DNA of 21,604 nt from a bacterium (GTDB taxonomy: Bacteria > Patescibacteria > Paceibacteria > UBA9973): positions 1 through 21,604 of the forward strand of contig JAKALG010000003.1 of the NCBI GenBank assembly GCA_021813235.1. Reading direction: 5' to 3'. The notes under the pieces are model-generated. The model was not told where the DNA came from and did not search any database. It saw nothing but the letters and a program-made list of their open reading frames with translations. The translations under genes were made by a program, and so were the position numbers. Shown here in pieces: positions 1,583-16,325 of the stretch (positions within the stretch are counted from its first letter, which is position 1; every line of letters begins with the position of its first letter).

Positions 1583-1681
1583 AAAAATTCCAGAAACAAA
1601 AATTTTAAGAGTCGTGTCGGTCCCCTGTCCTTATGACCCCGAGGGCGAAGACTCAGAAATTTTTCGGTTTCTGGAATTTTT
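1583..1681. repeat. Structured repeat family A, copy 1
   Basis: About 99 bp between rpmE and prfA. A locus-specific perfect 15-bp inverted repeat (AAAAATTCCAGAAAC at 1583-1597, complement at 1667-1681) flanks a conserved part. That part begins AAAAATTTTAAGAGTC, ends GACTCAGAAATTTTT, and also pairs as inner arms. The core between them carries GTGTCGGTCCCC and CCGAGGGCGAAG. The same conserved part recurs at 4037-4104 (reversed) and 10273-10340, each time with different outer arms. Not a gene. On the minus strand the 3' outer arm is followed by a short T-rich run, so it could also act as a terminator. Confidence 0.85.
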
Positions 1682-1684
1682 TAC

Positions 1685-1909
1685 TTATTTTTTAGTCTTT
1701 ACTTTAGCAGATGCAGCTCTACGTTTATTGAATCTTTCTACGCGTCCAGCAGTATCCATTATCTTTTCATTTCCAGTATAAAAAGGATGGCAATGACTAC
1801 AGATTTCCATTTTTATTTCTGGCATTGTTGAACCAACTTCAAAAACCGCTCCGCAAGCGCAGGTGGCTTTGGTTTTTATATCAAATTTTGGGTGTATATC
1901 TTTTTTCAT
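1685..1909 (-). CDS. rpmE: Ribosomal protein bL31
   Basis: Large-subunit protein bL31, which bridges the subunits near the central protuberance. The 74-aa sequence has the standard N-terminus (MKKDIHPKF) and the zinc-binding cysteines of the C+ type: Cys17 and Cys19, then Cys37 and Cys40 in the segment ICSHCHPFYTG. The C-terminal tail is basic (RFNKRRAASAKVKTKK). The gene follows the lytic transglycosylase by 23 bases. An AGGA just before the ATG is a modest SD, and a weak TATTCT lies 9 bases upstream. Repeat A1 separates it from prfA. Having rpmE next to prfA is a common bacterial arrangement. Confidence 0.97.
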   Translation of the reverse strand: MKKDIHPKFDIKTKATCACGAVFEVGSTMPEIKMEICSHCHPFYTGNEKIMDTAGRVERFNKRRAASAKVKTKK

Positions 1910-1932
1910 CGTCCTAGCAGAATATCACAGTT

Positions 1933-3288
1933 TTAATTCGAAAGCAAATCTATGTTAGCTTGAATTTTAGATTTTAATTTTTGAACACTCCTACTATATG
2001 AACAAGAAGAACCTCCAGAACCATAATATCTGCAAGCTGCTTTATTTTGAGCGCTAGCGCTAGTACCGACGGCTCCTAAATCACTCAAATATATTCCTGA
2101 AGCCATAAATGAATCCCGAGGAGACCAAGGATTTGCAAAATGACCTAAAATTTCTTGCAAACGGTCTTCAAAGAGTTTCCAAGTAGAAGGAATAAATTGT
2201 GCTGGGCCCATAGCTCCTCCCCATCCAGCCACTCCTGCAATAGGACAAGAAACAGCAGTCTGGAAGGCATTGAAGCTAAGCGCATTTGTAATTTCTAAAA
2301 ATGGAGCTACGTCGCGTGTCGGTTTCATAACATTAGGAAATACTTTTCCATTAACTTTTCCTACTCCTGCACCCGTATCTGGATTGGTCAAATAACATTG
2401 CCCGACATTGGCACCTAAACTACTTTCTTGAGTGAGTATTGCTAGCAAAAACGCAGGATCAACTCCTAATTTACTTTTTACTTCATTAGCGTAAGTGAGA
2501 GCTGTGCCGAAATCAATCTTTTGAGAGATACCAGCAAGGTTGAATAAAGCACTGCGGATTTTATCTGCTTGGGCTTTCTTTTGAGCAGCGAGTTTTTGAT
2601 ACTCGCTTTCTTTTTGTTTAGAAATAGCTAGCAATTGTTTTTTATCGGCCTCGGACTTTGCCACTTGTTTCTGAGTACTTTCTAGTTCTGCTTTAGCGTC
2701 AGTTTCTGCATTTCGTTGTTTTTCTAAACCGCTTTTAGCAACTTCAGTCTGTGTCTTTACTCCATTGATAATATCAACAGAATTTTTTATTGCTTGTTTG
2801 ATGGAATTGTAAGATTCAAGATCGCTATAAAAAGAAGAAAGGGTCTGATCAGAAAAAATTAAATAAATAAAATCTTGATTGTCAAAATCATTTGTATTAC
2901 GTAACAGCTGGGCCAGAGATTCGTGCTCACGGTCTATCTTTTGAGACAGGGTGTTGATTTGTGTAACTTTGTCATTTATATCAACTTTAAGCTGTGCAAT
3001 TTTTAGAGCTCTAGCCTTAATTTTTGCTTTTAGAGCATTGATCTGGCTAGTCAAATAATCCACGTCGCCTTTCAAAGTACCCGTCTGTTTTTGTTGTTCT
3101 TTCTGCTTATTTAACAAATCGGCTAGTTGAGCCTCTATCTGATTAAGCTCATTCTGACAAAAAGCCCTATCTGCTTGAGAAGATGAATTATTAATAGAAA
3201 GACAGTCAAAAGCTGCATTTGCTTTATGCACTCCCAAAATCGGTATAAAAAGTATAAAAATAAAAACTATGGCAATCTTCTTGACCAT
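1933..3288 (-). CDS. Secreted coiled-coil lytic transglycosylase
   Basis: Predicted murein-cleaving enzyme outside the membrane. Residues 1-25 form a signal peptide ending near ANAAF. Residues of about 35-250 are a long, Lys/Glu/Gln-rich coiled coil interrupted near residues 130-160, like the N-terminal part of CwlO- or EnvC-type proteins. The C-terminal domain (about 260-451) is of the MltB/SLT type. The candidate catalytic glutamate is Glu288 in AILTQESSLG, and GWGGAMGPAQFIPSTW is the hallmark motif. Four domain cysteines may form disulfides. The start is supported by an extended -10 (TGT-TAAAAT) seven bases before the ATG. It is followed closely by rpmE. The fusion resembles a self-regulated septal or elongation hydrolase, which is inference. 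Confidence 0.88.
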   Translation of the reverse strand: MVKKIAIVFIFILFIPILGVHKANAAFDCLSINNSSSQADRAFCQNELNQIEAQLADLLNKQKEQQKQTGTLKGDVDYLTSQINALKAKIKARALKIAQLKVDINDKVTQINTLSQKIDREHESLAQLLRNTNDFDNQDFIYLIFSDQTLSSFYSDLESYNSIKQAIKNSVDIINGVKTQTEVAKSGLEKQRNAETDAKAELESTQKQVAKSEADKKQLLAISKQKESEYQKLAAQKKAQADKIRSALFNLAGISQKIDFGTALTYANEVKSKLGVDPAFLLAILTQESSLGANVGQCYLTNPDTGAGVGKVNGKVFPNVMKPTRDVAPFLEITNALSFNAFQTAVSCPIAGVAGWGGAMGPAQFIPSTWKLFEDRLQEILGHFANPWSPRDSFMASGIYLSDLGAVGTSASAQNKAACRYYGSGGSSCSYSRSVQKLKSKIQANIDLLSN

Positions 3289-3295
3289 AGTTTTT

Positions 3296-3304
3296 ATTTT
3301 AACA
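3296..3304 (-). promoter_or_regulatory. Extended -10 of the lytic transglycosylase gene
   Basis: TGT followed by TAAAAT (3296-3301, minus strand) ends 7 bases before the ATG with no SD, which predicts a leaderless or nearly leaderless mRNA. Confidence 0.5.
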
Positions 3305-3315
3305 TATTTTTAAAA

Positions 3316-3981
3316 TTATTTCTTTTCTGCTTCTGCTTCTCCCTCTACTGCTTCTCCTCCTTCTTCTTCTTTCTTGCCTTTCTTTTCAACTTCGATTGCA
3401 GATAAGTCTACTGGCGCTGCGACTTCTTCTTTCTCTTCTACTTGAAGAACAATAGAAGCTACGACATCGTGTGGATTTGCTATAACAACGACTCCGGCTG
3501 GCAGAGCAATATCAGAAACAAAAATCTGACTGTCTACCGTTTCAAGTTTAGAAATATCTACAGGAAGGTTGTGTGGAAGATCTTTTGGCAAAGCTTCGAC
3601 TTCTACTTCATGAAGCACTTTGACAAGGTTGCCCAAGCCATTCTTGACTGCATTTGAGATACCGACATATTCAAGAGGAACATTAACTTTGATTTTCTTA
3701 TTCATATCAACAACTAGGAAGTCTACGTGTATAGGCTCTTCAGTCACTGGATGTACTTGCACTTCATGAATAAGAGCGTCGACACTAGCAGTGCCTACGT
3801 TTATCTTTACTGTGGAAGATTCTCCAGCTTCTCGCCAAATCTTTTTGAATTCAACGAGTGAAATAGAAATAGGAGTAGTGATACTACCTGCTCCATAAAA
3901 AACAGCAGGGATTTCCCCTTCTTTCTTTAAAGCATCTATTTTAATGCTCTCATCTCTCTTTTTAGCTTTAATTACAAACAT
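3316..3981 (-). CDS. rplY: Ribosomal protein bL25, CTC type
   Basis: Binds 5S rRNA in the large subunit. The N-terminal 5S-binding domain (about 1-90) includes KKEGEIPAVFYG and HEVQVHPVTEEPIHVDF, both typical of the family. A second beta domain follows (about 95-185), as in the longer CTC/TL5 form. The last 35 residues are a low-complexity Lys/Glu tail. I chose the ATG at 3981, giving 221 aa, rather than the in-frame one at 4029. The bL25 family starts at this point, and TATACT lies 7 bases upstream. The upstream ATG falls in the arm of repeat A2 and would add a hydrophobic stretch not found in the family. Confidence 0.94.
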   Translation of the reverse strand: MFVIKAKKRDESIKIDALKKEGEIPAVFYGAGSITTPISISLVEFKKIWREAGESSTVKINVGTASVDALIHEVQVHPVTEEPIHVDFLVVDMNKKIKVNVPLEYVGISNAVKNGLGNLVKVLHEVEVEALPKDLPHNLPVDISKLETVDSQIFVSDIALPAGVVVIANPHDVVASIVLQVEEKEEVAAPVDLSAIEVEKKGKKEEEGGEAVEGEAEAEKK

Positions 3982-3988
3982 GAGAGAC

Positions 3989-3994
3989 AGTATA
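3989..3994 (-). promoter_or_regulatory. -10 of rplY
   Basis: TATACT on the minus strand ends 7 bases before the chosen rplY ATG. It supports that start and suggests a leaderless mRNA. Confidence 0.5.
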
Positions 3995-4020
3995 ACCGAA
4001 TCTTTATTAAAAGTCAAAAA

Positions 4021-4120
4021 TATTTGCATGCCTGAGCAAAAATTTCTGAGCCTTCGCCCTCGGAGTCATAAGTCCAGGGGACCAACACGACTCTTGAAAT
4101 TTTTCTCAGGCACGCAAATA
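4021..4120. repeat. Structured repeat family A, copy 2 (opposite orientation)
   Basis: About 100 bp between the FAD oxidase and rplY. The outer arms TATTTGCATGCCTGAG (4021-4036) and its near-complement (4105-4120, 15 of 16 paired) are unrelated to the arms of copies 1 and 3. The inner conserved part lies on the opposite strand to the other copies. Relative to them the core shows TTGG for TCGG and GGAC for GTCC, and the CCGAGGGCGAAGGCTC block is unchanged. On the minus strand the arm is followed by T-rich sequence, so some termination activity after the FAD oxidase gene is possible. Confidence 0.85.
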
Positions 4121-4126
4121 CTTATA

Positions 4127-5986
4127 TTAGACTTTGTGTATGATGCTGTGTTCCCTAGCAATATGTTTGGCCATATATTCTTTTGTGCCTCCCCCATCTT
4201 CTGAAACTATTTTTTTTCCTGGATTAAAAATATTTTTTGGGTCAAATATTTTCTTAATTTCTGTAAAAATTGAAATTATATGTTTGCCATACATTTTTTC
4301 TAAGTAAGGAGTACGAACGAGGCCATCATTGTGCTCTGCCGTAATAGAGCCGTGATATTTCAAAACTAAATCATAAACCAGTCCCCCTAGCTCCATTATT
4401 ATTTTGGCAGTGTCCTCACGCGAAAAATCCATCAGAGGAATGATGTGAAAATTACCATCTCCCACATGCCCAGCTATAGTATAAGTCAAATCATACTTTG
4501 AAAAAATTTGATTAAGCTCTGGAATAAATTTCGGTAAAAATTCTGGACGAACAATGATGTCGTCTATAAAAGGCGCAGTGTGAAGACCTTTGACATGTTT
4601 GCGTAAGAGTGAAAAACTCTCTCTTCTAATATCCCAATACTTTTCTGATTCAGTTTCAGATTTTGTAATGTGGACATTGAGTTTGAAATTTTTTATCTTC
4701 TCTTTAAGACTCAAACACTGCTTATTTATTTCTTCTTCATTTTCACCTGCAAATTCGGCAAGAATAATTAATTTCGGAAAACCACTAGTGATCATCATCC
4801 AAAGTTCTGGTAAGAAGCTCCACATAAATTTTATCATCCCTACGAGCCCTTTGTTTTTAAGAAAATCCGGGAAGAATTTGACGGCTAATTTCATCGTTTT
4901 ATCATCATAAGTTTCCAAAGTTTCTGGATTAGTCTTCAAAATCTCATCTACCAGACGGCCTAATGGCTCTAAATTATTCATAAAGATGACCACCAATTTA
5001 GAATGTTTGGGATTTTTCACAAGCTTGAAAGTGATTTCTGTCGCTATGCCTAATGTGCCCTGCGAACCAACAAGAAGCTTGTTTAAATTGAAAAAACCAA
5101 AATCTGAAGAATTTTGAATGGTCTGGCCGGGGTTCGGGGCCCCGGGGATCCGAGGACCTGAAAAATTTTTTAGATTTTGGTTTTTGTTTTCTAGGACGTT
5201 CCATATATAATAGCCGGCAGAATTTTTACTAACGTTGGGCTTTGCAAGTTTTATTTCCTCTTTATTTTTATTTATCAAATCATAAATATTTTTATAAATT
5301 TCACTTTCAAAATTTGTCTGTGTAATTTTTTTAGTCAATTCATTTTGGGAGAGAGCTTTGACGACATATTCATTGCCGTCAGAAAAAACAACCTTAGCTT
5401 CTAAAACATAATCTTCTGTCTTTCCATATTTAAGAGTTCGTTCTCCGGCAGAATTGTTACCAAACATTCCACCCATAGCATTTAAACTTTTTGATGCAGT
5501 ATAACAAGGTAAAATAAGCCCTTTTTCTAAGGTTATTTTCTCGAAATCTCTATAAAACATACCGGGCTGCACAGTGATGGAATAATCACCACCCCCTGCC
5601 CCCTCCTCACCAAGGAGGGGAGGAAAACCCTCTCCTCCTTTTGAAGGAGGAGTGCCCAAAGGGCGAGGTGGTTGTATTAACTTACTCATATGCCTCGTGA
5701 AATCCAAAACCAAAGATTCACTAATGGCTCCGCCAGACATATCTGTGCCAGCACACCTCGCAGTGATGGAAAGATTTTTCCAATCTTTATTTTTCTCTGG
5801 GTCAGAATATTTATTTTTATTCTCTGAAACCCATTTGACTAAATTTTGAACGTCTTTTGAATCCAAAGGAAAAAGCACGAGCTTTGGCCTCAATTCAAAA
5901 ATACTCGCATCACGAGAATATTTCGAAAGTGTTTCTTCACTATCTTCCATCTCTCCCCTAAAAAATTTTTGTATTTCTTCTTTCAT
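4127..5986 (-). CDS. FAD-binding oxidase, GlcD / D-lactate dehydrogenase-like
   Basis: Predicted flavoprotein oxidising a 2-hydroxy acid such as D-lactate or glycolate. The N-terminal FAD_binding_4 (PCMH) domain has ARCAGTDMSGGA, VQPGMFYRDFE and GGMFGNNSAGERTLKYGKTEDYV, and later LLVGSQGTLGIATEI. The C-terminal FAD-oxidase domain has the metal/substrate motif AGHVGDGNFH and ends with IFDPKNIFNPGK. At 619 aa it is longer than the usual 450-550 aa. Two in-frame GC-rich insertions account for part of this: residues about 105-133 (PPRPLGTPPSKGGEG...) and about 275-290 (GPRIPGAPNPGQ). Both lie in loop positions between conserved blocks. It starts 5 bases after the Nudix gene, so the two are probably co-transcribed. 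No iron-sulphur domain is fused. The physiological substrate is unknown. Confidence 0.88.
   Translation of the reverse strand: MKEEIQKFFRGEMEDSEETLSKYSRDASIFELRPKLVLFPLDSKDVQNLVKWVSENKNKYSDPEKNKDWKNLSITARCAGTDMSGGAISESLVLDFTRHMSKLIQPPRPLGTPPSKGGEGFPPLLGEEGAGGGDYSITVQPGMFYRDFEKITLEKGLILPCYTASKSLNAMGGMFGNNSAGERTLKYGKTEDYVLEAKVVFSDGNEYVVKALSQNELTKKITQTNFESEIYKNIYDLINKNKEEIKLAKPNVSKNSAGYYIWNVLENKNQNLKNFSGPRIPGAPNPGQTIQNSSDFGFFNLNKLLVGSQGTLGIATEITFKLVKNPKHSKLVVIFMNNLEPLGRLVDEILKTNPETLETYDDKTMKLAVKFFPDFLKNKGLVGMIKFMWSFLPELWMMITSGFPKLIILAEFAGENEEEINKQCLSLKEKIKNFKLNVHITKSETESEKYWDIRRESFSLLRKHVKGLHTAPFIDDIIVRPEFLPKFIPELNQIFSKYDLTYTIAGHVGDGNFHIIPLMDFSREDTAKIIMELGGLVYDLVLKYHGSITAEHNDGLVRTPYLEKMYGKHIISIFTEIKKIFDPKNIFNPGKKIVSEDGGGTKEYMAKHIAREHSIIHKV
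5091..5187. repeat. GC-rich palindromic insertion inside the FAD oxidase gene, with flanking inverted arms
   Basis: A GC-rich core (5121-5158) with CCGGGG and CGGGGCCCCG palindromes is framed by GGTC and GGACC. It sits inside AT-rich arms: AAAAACCAAAATCT (from 5092) has its exact complement at about 5172-5185, and weaker pairing continues inward. It is translated in frame as SGPRIPGAPNPGQTIQ plus flanks, in the linker between the conserved NSAGYYIWNV and NKLLVGSQGTLG blocks. Its composition is unlike the surrounding gene. Confidence 0.75.
5588..5672. repeat. Cloverleaf-like GC-rich insertion inside the FAD oxidase gene
   Basis: About 85 bp bounded by ACCACC (5588-5593) and GGTGGT (5667-5672). 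It encloses three successive hairpins: CCTCCT/AGGAGG, CTCCTCC/GGAGGAG and GCCC/GGGC. It is read in frame as PPRPLGTPPSKGGEG...PPLLGEEGAGGG, placed between DFTRHMSKLIQ and YSITVQPG. The peptide and DNA resemble a widespread bacterial repeat with the signature PPSKGGEG, recalled from memory and not searched here. Confidence 0.75.
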
Positions 5987-5991
5987 TTTTG

Positions 5992-6480
5992 TTATTTACC
6001 TAAAAAATATTTCATGTCAGAACCAAAGGTAGGAATAAAAAAATCTGGATTTTCTTTATATAATTTTAGAATTTCATCTTTAGTAAACCATTTTATTTGT
6101 TCTACTTCCGTGTCTTGTTTTACAAAAGGATACTTGCTATCTACAACGACACTAAACCACTGTCCGAAATATTCATGGCTTGTTGATCTGCGATTTTTGC
6201 ACTCAATTTTTGGTTTTATATTTTTAAGTCTTATTTCTTCTTCTGCTTCTTTTATGATATTTTGTTCATAGGTTTCTCCCTCTTCCACTGTTCCAGCTAC
6301 TGCAGGACCCCATTTACCTGGATCTCTTATCTTATTAAAATTTCTTTGAGCAAGTAGAACTTCTCCTTTTTCATTAGTAACCCAAAGACCAGCGACACGA
6401 CCTATGTCTCCTTTTTGTCTTTCGTTTGCATCAATATGTTTTATTATCTCGTCTTGTTCGTTTACAATTGGTATTCTCAT
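5992..6480 (-). CDS. Nudix hydrolase, IPP isomerase-like subfamily
   Basis: Hydrolyses or isomerises a nucleoside diphosphate-X or prenyl diphosphate-type substrate. The 162-aa protein begins with a short strand segment (VNEQDEIIKHIDANERQ) and then RVAGLWVTNEKGEVLLAQRN, like the YfcD / isopentenyl-diphosphate isomerase branch. The Nudix box is GTVEEGETYEQNIIKEAEEEI. The glycine and the E-E-x-E acidic set are present, but the conserved Arg of REUxEE is Lys, and the following Gly is Arg. A C-terminal EVEQIKWFTKDEI segment is typical of the fold. No SD or clear -10 precedes the ATG. It is the first gene of a pair with the FAD oxidase. The substrate cannot be deduced. Confidence 0.85.
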   Translation of the reverse strand: MRIPIVNEQDEIIKHIDANERQKGDIGRVAGLWVTNEKGEVLLAQRNFNKIRDPGKWGPAVAGTVEEGETYEQNIIKEAEEEIRLKNIKPKIECKNRRSTSHEYFGQWFSVVVDSKYPFVKQDTEVEQIKWFTKDEILKLYKENPDFFIPTFGSDMKYFLGK

Positions 6481-6559
6481 GATTTTTTTAATCGAAAAAG
6501 ATTTGAATTAAGTGCAAAAAATTTCTAACTATTTCTAAGAATTGAAAATACATCTTCGT

Positions 6560-7432
6560 TTATTTTATATTATTGAAAAGTTTCAATCGTGCTTCAACGA
6601 CTTTACTTATAGCCTCGACGGCAGGTTGTAATATTTTATACGGTGCGACTTCGTTTGGATTTTCTTTCAAATATTTTTCTAAGGCTTCTTTGTAAGCAAC
6701 GCGGATTTCAGTATTTATATGAATGACAGATATGCCTGCTTTGATTGCATTTACAAAATCTTCATCAGCTATTCCAGAGCCACCATGCAAAACCAAAGGC
6801 ACACCAGCAGACTCTCTTATTTCTTTTATTCTCTCTATATCAAGCCTTGGATTCCCTCCTTTAACCATCCCATGCACATTACCGACAGATGGAGCGAGAA
6901 GGTTGATACCCGTTTTCTCTACAAAATATTTCGCATCTTCAGGCTTGGTCATCGTTTCTTTAGAAACTCCTTCTGGCATTTTGTCTAAAACTTTTGAAGA
7001 AGTGCCGATGAAACCGAGTTCTGCTTCAACTAAAATATTTCTTTTCATTTTTTCTCCTACTTCTTTCGCATAGTCCACACATTTTTTAGTAAGAGCGATA
7101 TTTTCTTCAAAAGGCAATTTCACAGCATCTATGATTACTGAATCAAAAAGAGCGTCCACGCAAGCTTTCACTTTTTCAAAACTATAATGATGGTCCGCAT
7201 TTAAAAATATTGGATAATTATCTCTTTCTTTGATCGTGCGAATGAGAGCCACGGCTTCCTCCCTATCCATAAAATCTTCTTCTCCTTCTGAGAGTCCAAT
7301 GATGATGGGCAAGTCTAATTTCCTAGCTGCATTATAAATACCGTGCAAAGCTTCTAAATTTGAAATATTAAAATGGCCAATAGCCACTCCTTTTTCTTCT
7401 GCCTCTTTTATGTATTCGTATAAAGTTTTCAT
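6560..7432 (-). CDS. Class II fructose-bisphosphate aldolase family protein
   Basis: Zinc-dependent aldolase, probably interconverting fructose 1,6-bisphosphate and the triose phosphates in glycolysis. The 290-aa TIM barrel shows GHFNISNLEAL near the start, then the zinc/catalytic region FLNADHHYSFEK. That corresponds to LDHG in other family members, with His retained and Gly replaced by His. It continues with VEAELGFIG, SVGNVHGMVKGGNPRLD (zinc His and phosphate loop), LVLHGGSGI and HINTEIR. A tagatose-bisphosphate or 2-deoxy sugar aldolase of the same fold (GatY/KbaY) cannot be excluded. It follows gatB by 78 bases, in which a -10 and a foldable leader occur. Confidence 0.9.
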   Translation of the reverse strand: MKTLYEYIKEAEEKGVAIGHFNISNLEALHGIYNAARKLDLPIIIGLSEGEEDFMDREEAVALIRTIKERDNYPIFLNADHHYSFEKVKACVDALFDSVIIDAVKLPFEENIALTKKCVDYAKEVGEKMKRNILVEAELGFIGTSSKVLDKMPEGVSKETMTKPEDAKYFVEKTGINLLAPSVGNVHGMVKGGNPRLDIERIKEIRESAGVPLVLHGGSGIADEDFVNAIKAGISVIHINTEIRVAYKEALEKYLKENPNEVAPYKILQPAVEAISKVVEARLKLFNNIK

Positions 7433-7499
7433 CCCATTAGAAATTTTAAATTAATAAAACTATACCTTATGACATGTCCGTTGAATTTCTAACGGGACA
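7433..7499 (-). promoter_or_regulatory. Aldolase leader with two mutually exclusive pairings
   Basis: On the minus strand 7484-7496 can pair with 7433-7445 (13 pairs including one G-U), which covers the bases directly before the ATG. Alternatively 7491-7499 can pair with 7475-7482 (8 pairs, one bulge), freeing the start region. The two structures share 7491-7496, so they cannot coexist. The layout is that of a translational switch; no known riboswitch core is recognised. Confidence 0.4.
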
Positions 7500-7509
7500 G
7501 GTTACCTTA

Positions 7510-7515
7510 ATTATA
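7510..7515 (-). promoter_or_regulatory. Candidate -10 for the aldolase gene at the gatB stop
   Basis: A perfect TATAAT on the minus strand overlaps the gatB stop codon. TTATCA lies 18 bases upstream as a weak -35. A transcript from here would begin near 7503, just before the switch-like leader. Confidence 0.45.
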
Positions 7516-8938
7516 GCAATTCTTTCAACATTTTGATAACGATTTGTGGATTGGCACTGCCATTACTTTCTTTTATGACCTTCCCAACTAGAGACATTAT
7601 GGCATTTTCTTTCCCAGCCTTATAAGTAGCCACAACTTCAGGATTTTCTGATATTGCCTTTTGTACTAGGATTTTCACTTCCCCTTCGTCATTTTTCTGC
7701 AACAAGCTTTTTTCTGTCGCAATTTGAAGCGGGGATTCGTCTTTCAAAACAATCATCGCTAGCATATCTTTCGCTACGCGTGAAGAAATCTTATTATCTG
7801 CCACTAAATTTATGAGTTCTGCAAAATTCTCTGCAGACGGAAGCCTTGCTTCCGTCTGTGTTTTTTTGATTCCTAAATAATCAGAAGTTATGTAGTTTGA
7901 AGCAAGTTTAATCTTTTCGGGAACAGAAAGAATTTTTGCAACTTCTTCAAAATAAGAACCGAGTTCTTTATCGTTAATATAGCTTTCTATGTCTTCATCT
8001 TTAATTTCAAAATCATTTTTATATCTTGCTCGTTTTTCTGCAGGAAGTTCTGGCAATTCCTTTTTCATTTTTTCTAAGTCAAAAGCTTCGTGCAATTTCA
8101 TTTTTGGCAAATCTGGCTCTGGAAAATATCTGTAATCATGACTAGACTCCTTTTTTCTCTGAGAGAATGTTTTCTGTTTGCCTTCATCCCAGCCCCGAGT
8201 TTCCTGTACTATTTCTTCTCCTTTTCCACCCTCATGAAGTTCTATCATTCTATCTAGTTCAAACTTGATTGCCTTTTCAACACTCTTAAAAGAGTTTAAA
8301 TTTTTCACTTCCACTTTTGTCCCCAATTTATTTTTATCCTCCGAAACAGAAATATTTGCTTCCACTCGCATTTCACCTTTTTCCATATTCGCTTCTGAAA
8401 CTCCTAGATACCAAAGTATGAGCTGAAGTTCTTTCGCAAATGAAGAGGCACTCTTTGCAGCTTTTTCGGCATCTTCAAAAGTCACTGGCTCTGTCACGAG
8501 CTCCATCAAAGGCACACCAGCACGATTGAAATCCACCAAAGAGAAATCTCCTCTGTCGTGTTTATTATTTGCCGTATCTTCTTCTAAATGCACACGAGTG
8601 ACGTCAAAGTCTGCGAGACGTCCTCCAGAAACTATCGGATATTTATATTGAGAAATCTGATAACCCTTCGGTATGTCTGGGTAAAAATAATTTTTTCTAT
8701 CAAATTCTGTAAAGTCTGCAATTGCGCCACCTATAGCCAAGCCAACTTTAATGACATTTTCAATTGCTTTTTTATTTATTACAGGCAAAGTTCCTGGATG
8801 TGCCATACAAACAGGGCAAATATTTATATTTGGATTTTCTTCGTCTGGGTCATTCTTGCAACCACAAAACATCTTAGTTAAAGTTTTTAACTCAGCGTGA
8901 ATTTCTAAACCAATTGTAGGATAATATTTTTTCTCCAT
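7511..8938 (-). CDS. gatB: Asp-tRNA(Asn)/Glu-tRNA(Gln) amidotransferase subunit B
   Basis: The subunit of GatCAB that binds the mischarged tRNA and makes Gln-tRNA(Gln) or Asn-tRNA(Asn). Start-region hallmarks are PTIGLEIHAEL, CPVCMAHPGTLP, ADFTEFDRKNYFYPDIPKGYQISQ and DFNRAGVPLMELVTEP. The kinase-like catalytic domain is followed by a C-terminal helical YqeY-type tail (about 325-475). Cysteines CGCK and CPVC could bind zinc. I chose the ATG at 8938, giving 475 aa: the family starts at MEKKYYPTIG, and TATAAT lies 6 bases upstream. Starting at 8965 would add nine unconserved residues that overlap the promoter. A perfect 10-bp palindrome is embedded in the coding sequence at 7834-7858. Confidence 0.96.
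   Translation of the reverse strand: MEKKYYPTIGLEIHAELKTLTKMFCGCKNDPDEENPNINICPVCMAHPGTLPVINKKAIENVIKVGLAIGGAIADFTEFDRKNYFYPDIPKGYQISQYKYPIVSGGRLADFDVTRVHLEEDTANNKHDRGDFSLVDFNRAGVPLMELVTEPVTFEDAEKAAKSASSFAKELQLILWYLGVSEANMEKGEMRVEANISVSEDKNKLGTKVEVKNLNSFKSVEKAIKFELDRMIELHEGGKGEEIVQETRGWDEGKQKTFSQRKKESSHDYRYFPEPDLPKMKLHEAFDLEKMKKELPELPAEKRARYKNDFEIKDEDIESYINDKELGSYFEEVAKILSVPEKIKLASNYITSDYLGIKKTQTEARLPSAENFAELINLVADNKISSRVAKDMLAMIVLKDESPLQIATEKSLLQKNDEGEVKILVQKAISENPEVVATYKAGKENAIMSLVGKVIKESNGSANPQIVIKMLKELL
7834..7867 (+). other. Terminator-shaped palindrome antisense within gatB
   Basis: CAGACGGAAG (7834-7843) and its perfect complement (7849-7858) enclose a 5-nt loop and are followed on the plus strand by TG and seven T residues. 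This is the shape of an intrinsic terminator, but it lies inside gatB in the antisense direction. In gatB it codes for QTEARLPS in a variable linker before the C-terminal domain. It may be a small palindromic insertion or an antisense terminator. Confidence 0.45.
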
Positions 8939-8944
8939 GTATTT

Positions 8945-8950
8945 ATTATA
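8945..8950 (-). promoter_or_regulatory. -10 of gatB
   Basis: A consensus TATAAT on the minus strand ends 6 bases before the gatB ATG with no SD between, indicating a leaderless mRNA. No good -35 is visible. Confidence 0.55.
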
Positions 8951-8975
8951 CAAAATAAACCTCATTACTCATAGG

Positions 8976-9003
8976 TTGACTAAATAAATAAAAGTAGTAT
9001 GGT
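8976..9003 (+). promoter_or_regulatory. Promoter of the 41-aa microprotein gene
   Basis: TTGACT (8976-8981), 16-bp spacer, TATGGT (8998-9003). It is divergent from the gatB promoter and would give a leader of about 45 nt ending in a strong SD. Confidence 0.55.
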
Positions 9004-9053
9004 AAATATTGAATAGATCCATATCATTAATCAATTAAATTATAGGAGGCTTT

Positions 9054-9179
9054 GTGAATCCGTTCAAAAATGTCTCCCTAAAAAAAGAGACAATAAGAAA
9101 GAAAATTCTTAAGGGGTTAATCCTCTTAGTAGCAGAAGGAATATTAATATATTTATTTCTTCTGGAAATTAATCTTTAA
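9054..9179 (+). CDS. Single-TM microprotein, 41 aa
   Basis: Unrecognised. The start is a GTG with a strong SD (AGGAGG, 4 bases before it). The N-terminal half is basic (SLKKETIRKKILK). Residues 21-37 (GLILLVAEGILIYLFLL) form one hydrophobic helix containing a glutamate, so it is probably a small inner-membrane protein with the N-terminus in the cytoplasm. It has its own promoter upstream and a hairpin terminator 20 bases downstream, making a complete monocistronic unit between divergent gatB and convergent obg. Support is the SD, the promoter and the terminator; the function is unknown. Confidence 0.7.
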   Translation: MNPFKNVSLKKETIRKKILKGLILLVAEGILIYLFLLEINL

Positions 9180-9199
9180 TTAAGCACTTTTAAAAAACA

Positions 9200-9227
9200 C
9201 GGAGGCGTTTATCGCCTCCGCTTTTTA
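9200..9227. terminator. Bidirectional intrinsic terminator
   Basis: The perfect 8-bp stem CGGAGGCG/CGCCTCCG (9200-9207 and 9213-9220) has a 5-nt loop. It is followed by CTTTTT on the plus strand and TGTTTTTT on the minus strand. It serves the 41-aa gene and obg, whose stop codon is just beyond. Confidence 0.9.
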
Positions 9228-10256
9228 TTTTTTCTTTAAAATTTTCATCAATTCATCTCTGAAAGTTTTTACTGACTTATCATCATAGAGAGAAAGCACA
9301 AAAACTTTTTTAGACCCGCCAGAGGAACGGGCAGGAATCTTTTCAAAATCTGCAACTTTCTTTTTTATAATTTTTTCATCCTCTATCACATCTGATTTAG
9401 TCAGAACAATTATTTCATCTTTTTTTGACAATCCATCCTCCCCTAATCCTAAATTCTTATCATATTTTTCCAATTCTTTTCTTATTTCTTTATAAACTTT
9501 CATCATGCCTGCCGTCCCCTTTGAGAGATTTTCGAACGAAACAAGGTGCGCAATCATTTTCGTGCGTCTAATATGTTTCAAAAATTTTACTCCGAGACCT
9601 TTGCCTGTATTTGCCCCTTCTATAAGCCCTGGAATGTCTGCAATAGTGTATCCGTAAAAATCCCCTAGGTTTGGATCTAAGGTCGTAAACTCATAATCAC
9701 CCACTTTCGCATCTGCATTCGTTAGGGCGTTTAATAGCGATGATTTACCGGCATTAGGGAGCCCAACGAGCCCGATGTCGGCAAATAGTTCGAGCTCTAT
9801 ATGGAAATCTGCATGTTCGCCCACTTCTCCAGGACGCCATTCTTTCGGAGTGGTGTTTGTAGAACTTTTAAAATGTTCATTCCCAAATCCTCCATAGCCA
9901 CCTTTTAAGAGCAAAACTTTTTGTCCTTCTTCTAGAAGTTGCCAAGTTTCTTCTGTATTTAAATTTGTAATGATGCTTCCTATCGGTAAATCTAAAATAA
10001 AATCTTCTCCTTTTTTGCCATGCAAGCTTTTGTTGCCACCATCTTCACCTTTTTCTGCATAGAAACTTTTTTTTGCTTTATATTTTGAAAGTATATGCAC
10101 ATCTCGCACAGCTCGCGCATAAAAATCCCCACCACGTCCACCGTCACCCCCTGCAGGACCTCCTTTAGGCACAAATTTCTCCTGACGCCAACGCACAACG
10201 CCGTTGCCACCAGTCCCCGCCTCTCCATATATTTTTATTTCATCTATAAAAGGCAT
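9225..10256 (-). CDS. obgE: GTPase Obg
   Basis: Ribosome-associated GTPase involved in 50S assembly. The N-terminal Obg fold (1 to about 157) is glycine-rich (GGNGVVRW, KGGPAGGDGGRGGD, GGYGGFGNEHF). The G domain shows G1 GLPNAGKSS near residue 163, the switch I sequence TTLDPNLG, G3 DIPGLIEGA and G4 TKSD (the usual first base-contact residue Asn is Thr). No C-terminal OCT domain is present. At 343 aa the length is normal. A short Pro-Ala-Arg-Ser-Ser-Gly-Gly segment near residues 307-314 is encoded by a GC-rich palindrome. The start codon lies in the outer arm of repeat A3 and has no SD. Confidence 0.96.
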   Translation of the reverse strand: MPFIDEIKIYGEAGTGGNGVVRWRQEKFVPKGGPAGGDGGRGGDFYARAVRDVHILSKYKAKKSFYAEKGEDGGNKSLHGKKGEDFILDLPIGSIITNLNTEETWQLLEEGQKVLLLKGGYGGFGNEHFKSSTNTTPKEWRPGEVGEHADFHIELELFADIGLVGLPNAGKSSLLNALTNADAKVGDYEFTTLDPNLGDFYGYTIADIPGLIEGANTGKGLGVKFLKHIRRTKMIAHLVSFENLSKGTAGMMKVYKEIRKELEKYDKNLGLGEDGLSKKDEIIVLTKSDVIEDEKIIKKKVADFEKIPARSSGGSKKVFVLSLYDDKSVKTFRDELMKILKKK

Positions 10257-10357
10257 ATAAAATTAAGAAAATAAAAATTTTAAGAGTCGTGTCGGTCCCC
10301 TGTCCTTATGACTCCGAGGGCGAAGGCTCAGAAATTTTTGATTTTCTTAATTTTATA
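10256..10357. repeat. Structured repeat family A, copy 3
   Basis: About 102 bp between obg and the MYG1-family gene. The outer arms are a perfect 17-bp inverted repeat (TATAAAATTAAGAAAAT at 10256-10272, complement at 10341-10357), unlike those of copies 1 and 2. The conserved part (10273-10340) has the same orientation as copy 1 and differs from it at only a few bases, such as GGCTC for GACTC. One arm ends at the obg ATG, whose first base is at 10256. The other arm contains the stop codon of the upstream gene. Confidence 0.87.
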
Positions 10358-12330: not shown

Positions 12331-12349
12331 ATCAAAAAAATATTATATT

Positions 12350-12495
12350 AAAAAGAAATGGTGTTTTTAGAAAGCCTTGCGCAGAAGCTTAGAAAATAAA
12401 GACGGTAGTCCGTCTATTATTTTCTTGAGCGACGAGCAGAACGCTCCCAAAGCTTCGCCAGATAGATTGCTTTATAAAAATAACATTTCTTTTTA
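12350..12495. repeat. Structured repeat family B, copy 1
   Basis: About 146 bp between divergent yqeY and the exonuclease gene. Outer arms: AAAAAGAAATG (12350-12360) with its complement near 12484-12494, extending imperfectly to AAAGC/GCTTT. Inside come TTGCGCAG, then AGAAAATAA paired with TTATTTTCT. That stem carries a terminal hairpin GACGG-TAGT-CCGTC (12401-12414). After it come TTGAGCGACGAGCA and a variable part around AAGCTT. The same order of blocks is found at 16194-16320. Confidence 0.8.
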
Positions 12496-13243: not shown

Positions 13244-13264
13244 TATGGAAATAAAATAATTCAA

Positions 13265-13302
13265 TGTATACACTTTTGACGGCCATATAAAACTGTATAC
13301 AT
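13265..13302. promoter_or_regulatory. Palindromic site 1 next to the PaaX-like gene
   Basis: A 38-bp imperfect palindrome: TGTATACA at one end, then CACTTTTGACGGCC (13271-13284), a 9-bp divergent spacer, and TGTATACAT (13294-13302). The same two blocks with the same 9-bp spacing recur at 13816-13853. This copy lies between the convergent ends of the exonuclease and PaaX-like genes, where a simple promoter operator is not expected. Confidence 0.7.
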
Positions 13303-13316
13303 AAAAAGATATCAAA

Positions 13317-13808
13317 TTAATTATTTTTTTTACGTACTGTAAAAATTTTTACATTTTTTCTTATATCCAAATCAGTAAGTCTTTTCAAAAAATCCGCAGG
13401 CAATGGGCCATAGCCAAGCCACAAACTTTGCTGTAACATTTTATATCCAAAAATTTTGATTTGATTTCGCAACCAATTTCGTTTTATTCTATCAGCCTCA
13501 GTAATATCAAAAGAAATAATTGTGTTAGGTTGTTGATTTTTATTAAAAGGAGAAGGAATATAAGAAAATAAAAGATTTTTATTATTATATACCTTCCCTT
13601 TTTTGGTTAAAGACCAATTGCCTTTTTTATTATTTAAATAACCTCTTTTATTCAAACGAGAAAGGGCTACTCGTACACTTCTTTCTTTGTATCGCGCAAA
13701 TTCACGTTCACGAAGAATTTTATAAAAACTAGCCGAACTTCTATGGCTCGTAATTGTGGCAACAAGGAGGTCCCCGATACTTGGCGAAAAATTTTGTTTG
13801 TATGGCAT
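13317..13808 (-). CDS. PaaX-like winged-helix regulator with Cas2-like domain
   Basis: Predicted transcriptional repressor, 163 aa. Residues of about 8-75 form a winged helix (SIGDLLVATI, then SVRVALSRLNKRGYL as recognition region, and KKGNWSLTKKGK as wing). Residues of about 95-160 (ISFDITEADRIKRNWLRNQI, FGYKMLQQSLWLGYGPLP, VKIFTV) match the ferredoxin-like central domain of PaaX, which shares its fold with Cas2. The longer C-terminal region of classical PaaX is absent. No cas genes or CRISPR array occur here, so a CRISPR role is not supported. A palindromic site covers its own promoter and a second copy lies just past its stop, suggesting autoregulation or a site-bounded cassette. No SD; TAACAT ends 6 bases before the ATG. 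Confidence 0.8.
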   Translation of the reverse strand: MPYKQNFSPSIGDLLVATITSHRSSASFYKILREREFARYKERSVRVALSRLNKRGYLNNKKGNWSLTKKGKVYNNKNLLFSYIPSPFNKNQQPNTIISFDITEADRIKRNWLRNQIKIFGYKMLQQSLWLGYGPLPADFLKRLTDLDIRKNVKIFTVRKKNN

Positions 13809-13815
13809 AGTTATA

Positions 13816-13853
13816 TGTTATCACTTTTGACGGCCGTTTCAAAGTGTATACAT
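13816..13853 (-). promoter_or_regulatory. Palindromic site 2 overlapping the PaaX-like gene promoter
   Basis: The second 38-bp site has CACTTTTGACGGCC (13822-13835), a 9-bp spacer and TGTATACAT (13845-13853). On the minus strand it contains TTGAAA (13837-13842), a 16-bp spacer and TGA-TAACAT (-10 at 13815-13820), followed by the ATG after 6 bases. The palindrome thus covers almost the whole promoter, as expected for an autorepression operator. Confidence 0.7.
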
Positions 13854-16189: not shown

Positions 16190-16325
16190 GAGCACACTTT
16201 TTAGAAAACATTGCGCAGGAGTTTAGAAAATAAAAGAAGTACTCTTCTTATTATTTTCTTGAACGACGAGCATAGCAATTTGCAAGCTTGCAAATATGCG
16301 TGTTTTATAAAAAGTTGTGCTAAGA
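16190..16325. repeat. Structured repeat family B, copy 2
   Basis: Outer arms AGCACACTTTTTAGAAAACA (16191-16210) and the matching TGTTTTATAAAAAG with TTGTGCT (16302-16322) pair with few mismatches and differ in sequence from copy 1. Inside are TTGCGCAGGAG, AGAAAATAA/TTATTTTCT and the terminal hairpin AGAAG-TACT-CTTCT, then TTGAACGACGAGCA. Instead of the copy-1 3' region there is a perfect 18-bp palindrome, ATTTGCAAGCTTGCAAAT. Together with element C it fills the 310-bp gap between rmuC and the next gene. Confidence 0.8.

Follow-up and report, generated by a model that had tools for sequence, protein, structure and literature searches.

A genus-wide family of small hairpin elements in Nomurabacteria whose site-specific arms may be written by template switching

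How can a repeat keep a common core and still be closed, at different sites, by paired arms that mostly depend on the locus? The question is raised by a 21,604-nucleotide (nt) stretch of a Paceibacteria genome (GCA_021813235.1, contig JAKALG010000003.1, positions 1 to 21,604; hereafter the window), in which three copies of a repeat, family A, each carry a 67-nt core enclosed by complementary arms (Table 1). Family A consists of small elements that are dispersed genus-wide and lie in frame inside essential proteins as well, and we give roughly even odds (about 0.5) to the reading that it is a mobile hairpin, small and non-coding, belonging to one Nomurabacteria genus, with arms written by template switching at or after insertion.

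Dispersal of family A and pairing of its arms

The three intergenic copies, placed by the initial annotation at 1583-1681, 4021-4120 and 10256-10357, were re-detected at these coordinates, and the arm pairing reported for them (Table 1) was borne out by direct reading and by hairpin folds. Upon folding, each window copy formed a single long continuous hairpin (z = -4.3, -7.8 and -6.3) that none of 200 shuffles matched. The claim that their arms differ completely was too strong: copies 1 and 3 match at ~60% of arm positions (9/14 on the left and 9/15 on the right identical in an ungapped alignment, D1, as counted by eye), and the arms of copy 2 are unrelated to those of the other two. Exploring related genomes, we located the core in 18 of 60 relatives, with no fewer than 98 places among them, and every carrier belongs to the genus of the window (18/36, against 0/24 of other genera); this genus comprises relatives mostly titled Candidatus Nomurabacteria, G001 being the nearest relative genome, and the 98 places are a lower bound, 15 of 22 candidates having been scored in genome G034. 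Across a phylum sample of 379 genomes the core was present in two, both of the same genus, that is in 1 of 313 genera. The stretches fetched for further analysis cover 82 of the 98 places, the remaining 16 being weak matches, and the 144 matches over all loci were reduced to 106 distinct copies with 60 nt kept on both sides.

Scoring arm complementarity over all these copies, a check that the initial annotation had named, revealed an outward pairing score of at least 6 in 101 of the 106 (mean of all 106, 12.0), compared with 19% of 11,130 control pairings that set the left flank of one copy against the right flank of another. Three of the five copies that score below 6 (L072, L079 and L080, all from G022) carry a ~22-bp CCTGCC...GGCAGG palindrome nested at the same position of the core, and their scores are low because it misplaced the core boundary; by eye their arms do pair, imperfectly in L080. 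The other two are L073, which is without arms, and L095, in which they are weak. In the consensus fold of the 101 paired copies, arms and core form one stem; its outer arm columns 8-16 hold five or six pair types each and are 71-92% paired, percentages that are no independent test since the copies were selected for paired arms, and the unpaired share perhaps reflects register shifts. Inner stem columns covary as well, for example 29-72 (A-U/C-G) and 30-71 (G-C/A-U). The particular core pairing proposed earlier, TCGG/TTGG opposite CCGA, found no support, as the dinucleotide falls in a gap column of the 101-copy consensus and the consensus structure does not place it opposite CCGA.

Host codons beside in-frame inserts

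In many copies, open frames run through the core, in mnmA, the gene of the CCA-adding enzyme, ligA, an RlmI-like methyltransferase gene, rsmH, leuS and a flavin adenine dinucleotide (FAD) oxidase gene, names which, some excepted, we take the translated motifs to indicate. The same protein loop is occupied in different species by different palindromic families, as grouped by eye: at the FAD-oxidase loop GYYIWNV...FDLNKLLVGS the window carries another palindrome, family C, G001 carries a family A variant and other relatives have no insert. Among 62 parsed mnmA loci (10 of 72 were unparsed, and six interrupted places, in G002, G006, G016, G023, G069 and G089, were not included), the loop is a plain one of 8 codons in 11 and of 12 codons in three, and 44 of the other 48 reach a best stem score of at least 8 between the insert ends, a score for which no null was computed. 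Two of the mnmA inserts, L216 and L234, have common outer arms around different inner hairpins. Elsewhere the unparsed loci numbered 3/33 for the CCA enzyme, 4/32 for the methyltransferase, 10/31 for leuS and 19/31 for rsmH, in which a wider pattern parsed 25 loci.

Uninterrupted relatives allow host codons to be told from inserted sequence. The methyltransferase has 16 codons between FPEQASHW and LNLFGYTG in 14 of 28 parsed loci and 47 codons in L092, in which core and both arms make up 102 nt while the net gain is 93 nt; therefore ~9 nt of arm are host codons. The codons EAN of its 5' arm fit IKEAG/IKEAK of the relatives, the 3' side shows no fit, and the inverse of the EAN stretch lies in the 3' arm, so that L092 is favoured as the cleanest putative case of inverted flank copying. 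In leuS L098 the element with arms measures ~94 nt and the net gain 75-78 nt, leaving 16-19 nt, about one arm, as host length. Comparison of 14 family A inserts in five genes showed the gene-5' arm to be, on average, nearer in register to uninterrupted relatives than the 3' arm in 12, a figure that is no independent count, as the inserts are partly orthologous; the CCA copies, ligA L090, the second mnmA site and a few further copies of the FAD region lie outside this set. For mnmA, with 47 filled loci of several families and 11 uninterrupted ones, the reverse complement of the 3' arm scored 1.82 on the uninterrupted 5'-flank profile, exceeding all 2000 shuffles (null 0.25, standard deviation 0.39); the converse does not hold, the 5' arm showing no match to the inverted 3' flank. 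The coding sites, judged from sequence comparison, favour a process that would have copied one flank in inverted form to the other side of the core.

A number of results pull the other way. The 3' arm is the one nearer to relatives in L257 and L169, the difference between arms is small in rsmH, codon accounting at L096, in the same place of the methyltransferase, leaves an ambiguous ~1 nt of arm as host length, and direct reading leaves the three copies in the CCA enzyme ambiguous. The mnmA arms of other families were not more host-flank-like than family A arms elsewhere (1.46, n=42, against 1.13, n=99; p = 0.55), and the idea of the same mnmA arms for all element families is unsupported at that p value. 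In addition, near-identical-core paralogues share more arm sequence than distant ones: mean arm identity of paralogue-like pairs is 0.54 at core identity of at least 0.97 (n=32) and 0.35-0.38 at core identity below 0.8, indicating that some bases beyond the core travel along with it. At the copy 2 site in G001, which has no element, only GCAAA of one arm is visible; it lies on the gene-upstream side, as at coding sites, yet 5' of the + core, unlike at most of them. Upstream of obgE, G004 has both arms together with AAAATTTTTG and no core. Another site, L157, was dropped as a one-arm empty site, since it contains AAAAGATTT, which resembles the end of the core, and may be what a deletion left behind. 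Of the two readings offered in the initial annotation, that insertion copies the flank in inverted form is thus favoured at coding sites with uninterrupted relatives, best in L092, and is tempered by these exceptions and ambiguous sites.

Intergenic sites, rival explanations and a template-switching model

An empty site holding both arms, an outcome that the initial annotation had counted against its own reading, was found once, at G004. The obgE tree joins G004 to the window (81/41) and places the two in a group of four (88/85) with G029 and G083, both of which have the element; at obgE the core is flanked on either side by AAAATTTT-like runs. Because of this placement among filled genomes and these flanking runs, the site reads best as a probable loss of the core by slippage between AAAATTTT repeats, the simpler reading, with weak to moderate tree support; alternatively, it may be a pre-insertion hairpin. 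We used only the local grouping of G004, the window, G029 and G083 and not the group counts, the tree labels having been set by a short motif that marked the coreless L116 as filled and the core-bearing L120 and L278 as unfilled and that missed the core of L109, just beyond the scanned stretch. An inverted core at obgE in L110 was left unused as a spacer inversion; its arms differ from those of other species and it may be a separate insertion. Filled and empty intergenic sites are cited here as individual cases, since the AT-richness of arms and spacers made alignment scores uninformative for the most part. At the element-free G001 site of copy 2, identity to the window is 98.8% on the side of the L25 gene and 88% on the other, and this drop (window ~3994-4120, against L161/L276) possibly reflects a boundary of recombination located at the element.

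G004 is also a point in favour of a different explanation, by which the core inserts into the loop of pre-existing hairpins, either terminator-like or older palindromic inserts, so that both arms are target and cores may be swapped inside a lasting hairpin. The common outer arms of mnmA L216 and L234 around different inner hairpins agree with it, as do the arms of the CCA-enzyme copies and of the FAD-oxidase copy L169, which are GC-rich and unlike the AT-rich host codons, and REPs (repetitive extragenic palindromes) of some species are described as sitting in longer palindromes, though with a conserved consensus (PMC3733652). Yet the 14 uninterrupted methyltransferase loci reach best loop stem scores of merely 4-9, the G001 site of copy 2 has no hairpin by reading, and G004 clusters with filled genomes; we hold this explanation to be conceivable and rather doubtful. 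Selection for a long RNA or DNA hairpin, serving stability, regulation or protection, in which compensatory mutation keeps the pairing while the arms evolve fast, was the other reading of the initial annotation. The covariation of core stem pairs and arms over 101 copies, the somewhat similar arms of copies with similar cores and the arms of obgE orthologues, in which some positions change in step and others do not, are what it can draw on; templated arm correction, however, would yield the identical covariation signal. Hairpin selection does not predict the asymmetry between the arms, the positions of the elements, at the start codon of obgE and in frame within enzymes, are those expected of inserts that are tolerated, and an intrinsic-terminator scan did not list any of the three window copies, although its loop limit of 3-8 could exclude such hairpins by construction. 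We consider this explanation unlikely.

Least probable to us is a conventional non-autonomous transposon of the REP or MITE (miniature inverted-repeat transposable element) type, moved by a Y1 (RAYT-like) transposase or by a reverse transcriptase that makes the arms. Matches to Y1_Tnp and RVT_1 are indeed common, in 55 and 43 of 80 genomes of the genus, but they do not follow the element. The family A core was found in none of 20 Y1_Tnp regions from five family-A genomes (~1 kb on either side, two limited by contig ends); a hand tally gave Y1_Tnp in 15/18 genomes with family A and 13/18 without, and RVT_1 in 9/18 and 10/18; and G023, with 10 copies, has no match to either family. As far as a search limited to these two protein families goes, neither was associated with family A, and both were rejected as its mover.

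The preferred reading is that the arms were possibly made by template switching. The mobile part would comprise the core, its inner stem (AAATTT.../...AAATTT) included, and a small number of adjoining bases. During insertion or afterwards, a nascent DNA strand would fold back on the core hairpin, the folded-back strand would be copied for ~8-20 nt and synthesis would then return to the normal template, thereby leaving the reverse complement of one flank at the opposite edge of the core. With the inverted copy of the flank written beyond the core, the outer arms would match the site and not the element, and later slips of the same kind would keep the arms paired. As to how the core reaches new sites, its A/T-rich ends suggest that it may arrive via microhomology. 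By published accounts, template switching can both generate perfect stems and repair them (PMC8794818); it can also homogenise arms as well as invert spacers (PMC8604942). We regard it as the most economical account, as it would give site-specific perfect arms in one event together with later homogenisation. A bolder proposal is that family A is an enzyme-free mobile hairpin that spreads and anchors only by replication template switching, using as terminal repeat the inverted copy that it makes of every target, and that it and other hairpin families have repeatedly decorated the same protein loops genus-wide; this we put forward as an unlikely speculation. The general questions addressed are how small palindromic elements spread without a known transposase and how long perfect stems originate. 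Host codons at many orthologous loops serve as a ruler for the old and the new arm, making inverted copying against hairpin insertion directly testable, and the inserts illustrate that small genomes tolerate repeated in-frame hairpins in core enzymes such as MnmA.

Window features, other palindromes and known systems

Copy 1 lies between prfA and rpmE (the latter assigned by translation), copy 2 between the L25 gene and the FAD-oxidase gene, and copy 3 between obgE and a MYG1-like gene, where the arms touch the start of the one and the stop of the other and leave little spare room. T runs, by reading, are present at the ends of copy 1 and weaker at copies 2 and 3. An Rfam search of the window with curated covariance models gave nothing at any of the three copies at E <= 1.

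Table 1. Coordinates of family A copies and other palindromic elements in the window
Feature	Position	Strand	Remarks
Copy 1, left arm AAAAATTCCAGAAAC	1583..1597	+	pairs 15/15 with 1667-1681
Copy 1, family A core, 67 nt	1598..1664	+	97% to the query core
Copy 1, right arm	1667..1681	+	from folding; G001 has the same copy (L021, L131)
Copy 2, arm TATTTGCATGCCTGAG, 3' of + core	4021..4036	+	pairs 15/16 with 4105-4120
Copy 2, family A core, 67 nt	4038..4104	-	orientation opposite to that of copies 1 and 3; the copy as a whole is missing from G001
Copy 2, arm CTCAGGCACGCAAATA	4105..4120	+	from folding; GCAAA is the sole part visible at the element-free G001 site
Copy 3, left arm	10256..10272	+	one-base overlap with the obgE start codon; pairs 17/17 with 10341-10357
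Copy 3, family A core, 67 nt	10273..10339	+	served as query sequence
Copy 3, right arm	10341..10357	+	includes the stop codon of the MYG1-like gene upstream
Family C palindromic insert	5092..5185	-	GC-rich, with long AT-rich arms; in frame in FAD oxidase
Family B palindromic element (third core)	12349..12495	+	own 27-nt arms

Other repeats were seen in the window and its relatives. Family B has a second repeat copy at 16198-16289, the two being 76% identical over 92 nt, and sequences like it occur between prfA and rpmE in other species. An open reading frame of 163 amino acids (13317-13808, - strand) is bracketed by 47-nt imperfect direct repeats (79%) at 13256-13302 and 13807-13853. Within obgE, a 21-nt GC-rich, palindrome-like in-frame insert (9315-9335) is missing from G001, and in place of the NUDIX-like gene at 5988-6484 G001 has ~1.8 kb of other sequence (compared with L276). 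Perfect short palindromes, such as TACATAGGAATTTCCTATGTA, were present near Y1 transposase genes in five of the first eight regions scanned (L352, L353, L354, L355 and L358). Because palindromes resembling these also form mnmA inserts (L205, L210 and L256), some of the other hairpin families may be RAYT-linked.

A literature search on such elements in Nomurabacteria or Parcubacteria gave nothing relevant among the matches listed, which does not by itself show that no paper exists. Among known systems, Rickettsia palindromic elements (RPE) are alike in being palindromic, 105-146 bp long and both intergenic and in frame in conserved proteins; as described, RPE carry a 12-bp terminal inverted repeat (PMC2229807), whereas the outer arms of family A vary by site and its inner arm bases are partly common, a comparison made by description and not by sequence. 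REP/RAYT systems share with family A hairpin repeats that are extragenic and, by published description, sometimes intragenic (PMC3733652), and Y1 transposases occur in the genus of the window. However, the family A core lay beside none of the 20 Y1_Tnp genes checked, a subset of the Y1 genes of the genus, and family A is ~100 nt long, compared with 20-40 for REP, and has locus-specific outer arms. MITEs are likewise short and non-coding with terminal inverted repeats; those of family A differ between copies, and target-site duplication, for which no systematic test was made, was not demonstrated. In quasipalindrome template-switch mutations one arm is likewise the inverted copy of the other, with arm homogenisation and spacer inversion; the cases described alter existing repeats or form single stems (PMC8604942, PMC8794818), whereas the process at family A would go with a dispersed repeat family. 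The repetitive hairpin elements of sponge mitochondria resemble the present case in having several unrelated families per lineage, located in spacers and, with the reading frame kept, in variable regions of proteins, and differ in that the stems of the types compared are described as conserved between copies (PMC2800124). Family A, with an RPE-like in-frame habit and without a shared terminal repeat or, as far as tested, linkage to RAYT, is judged to be a variant of small palindromic mobile elements.

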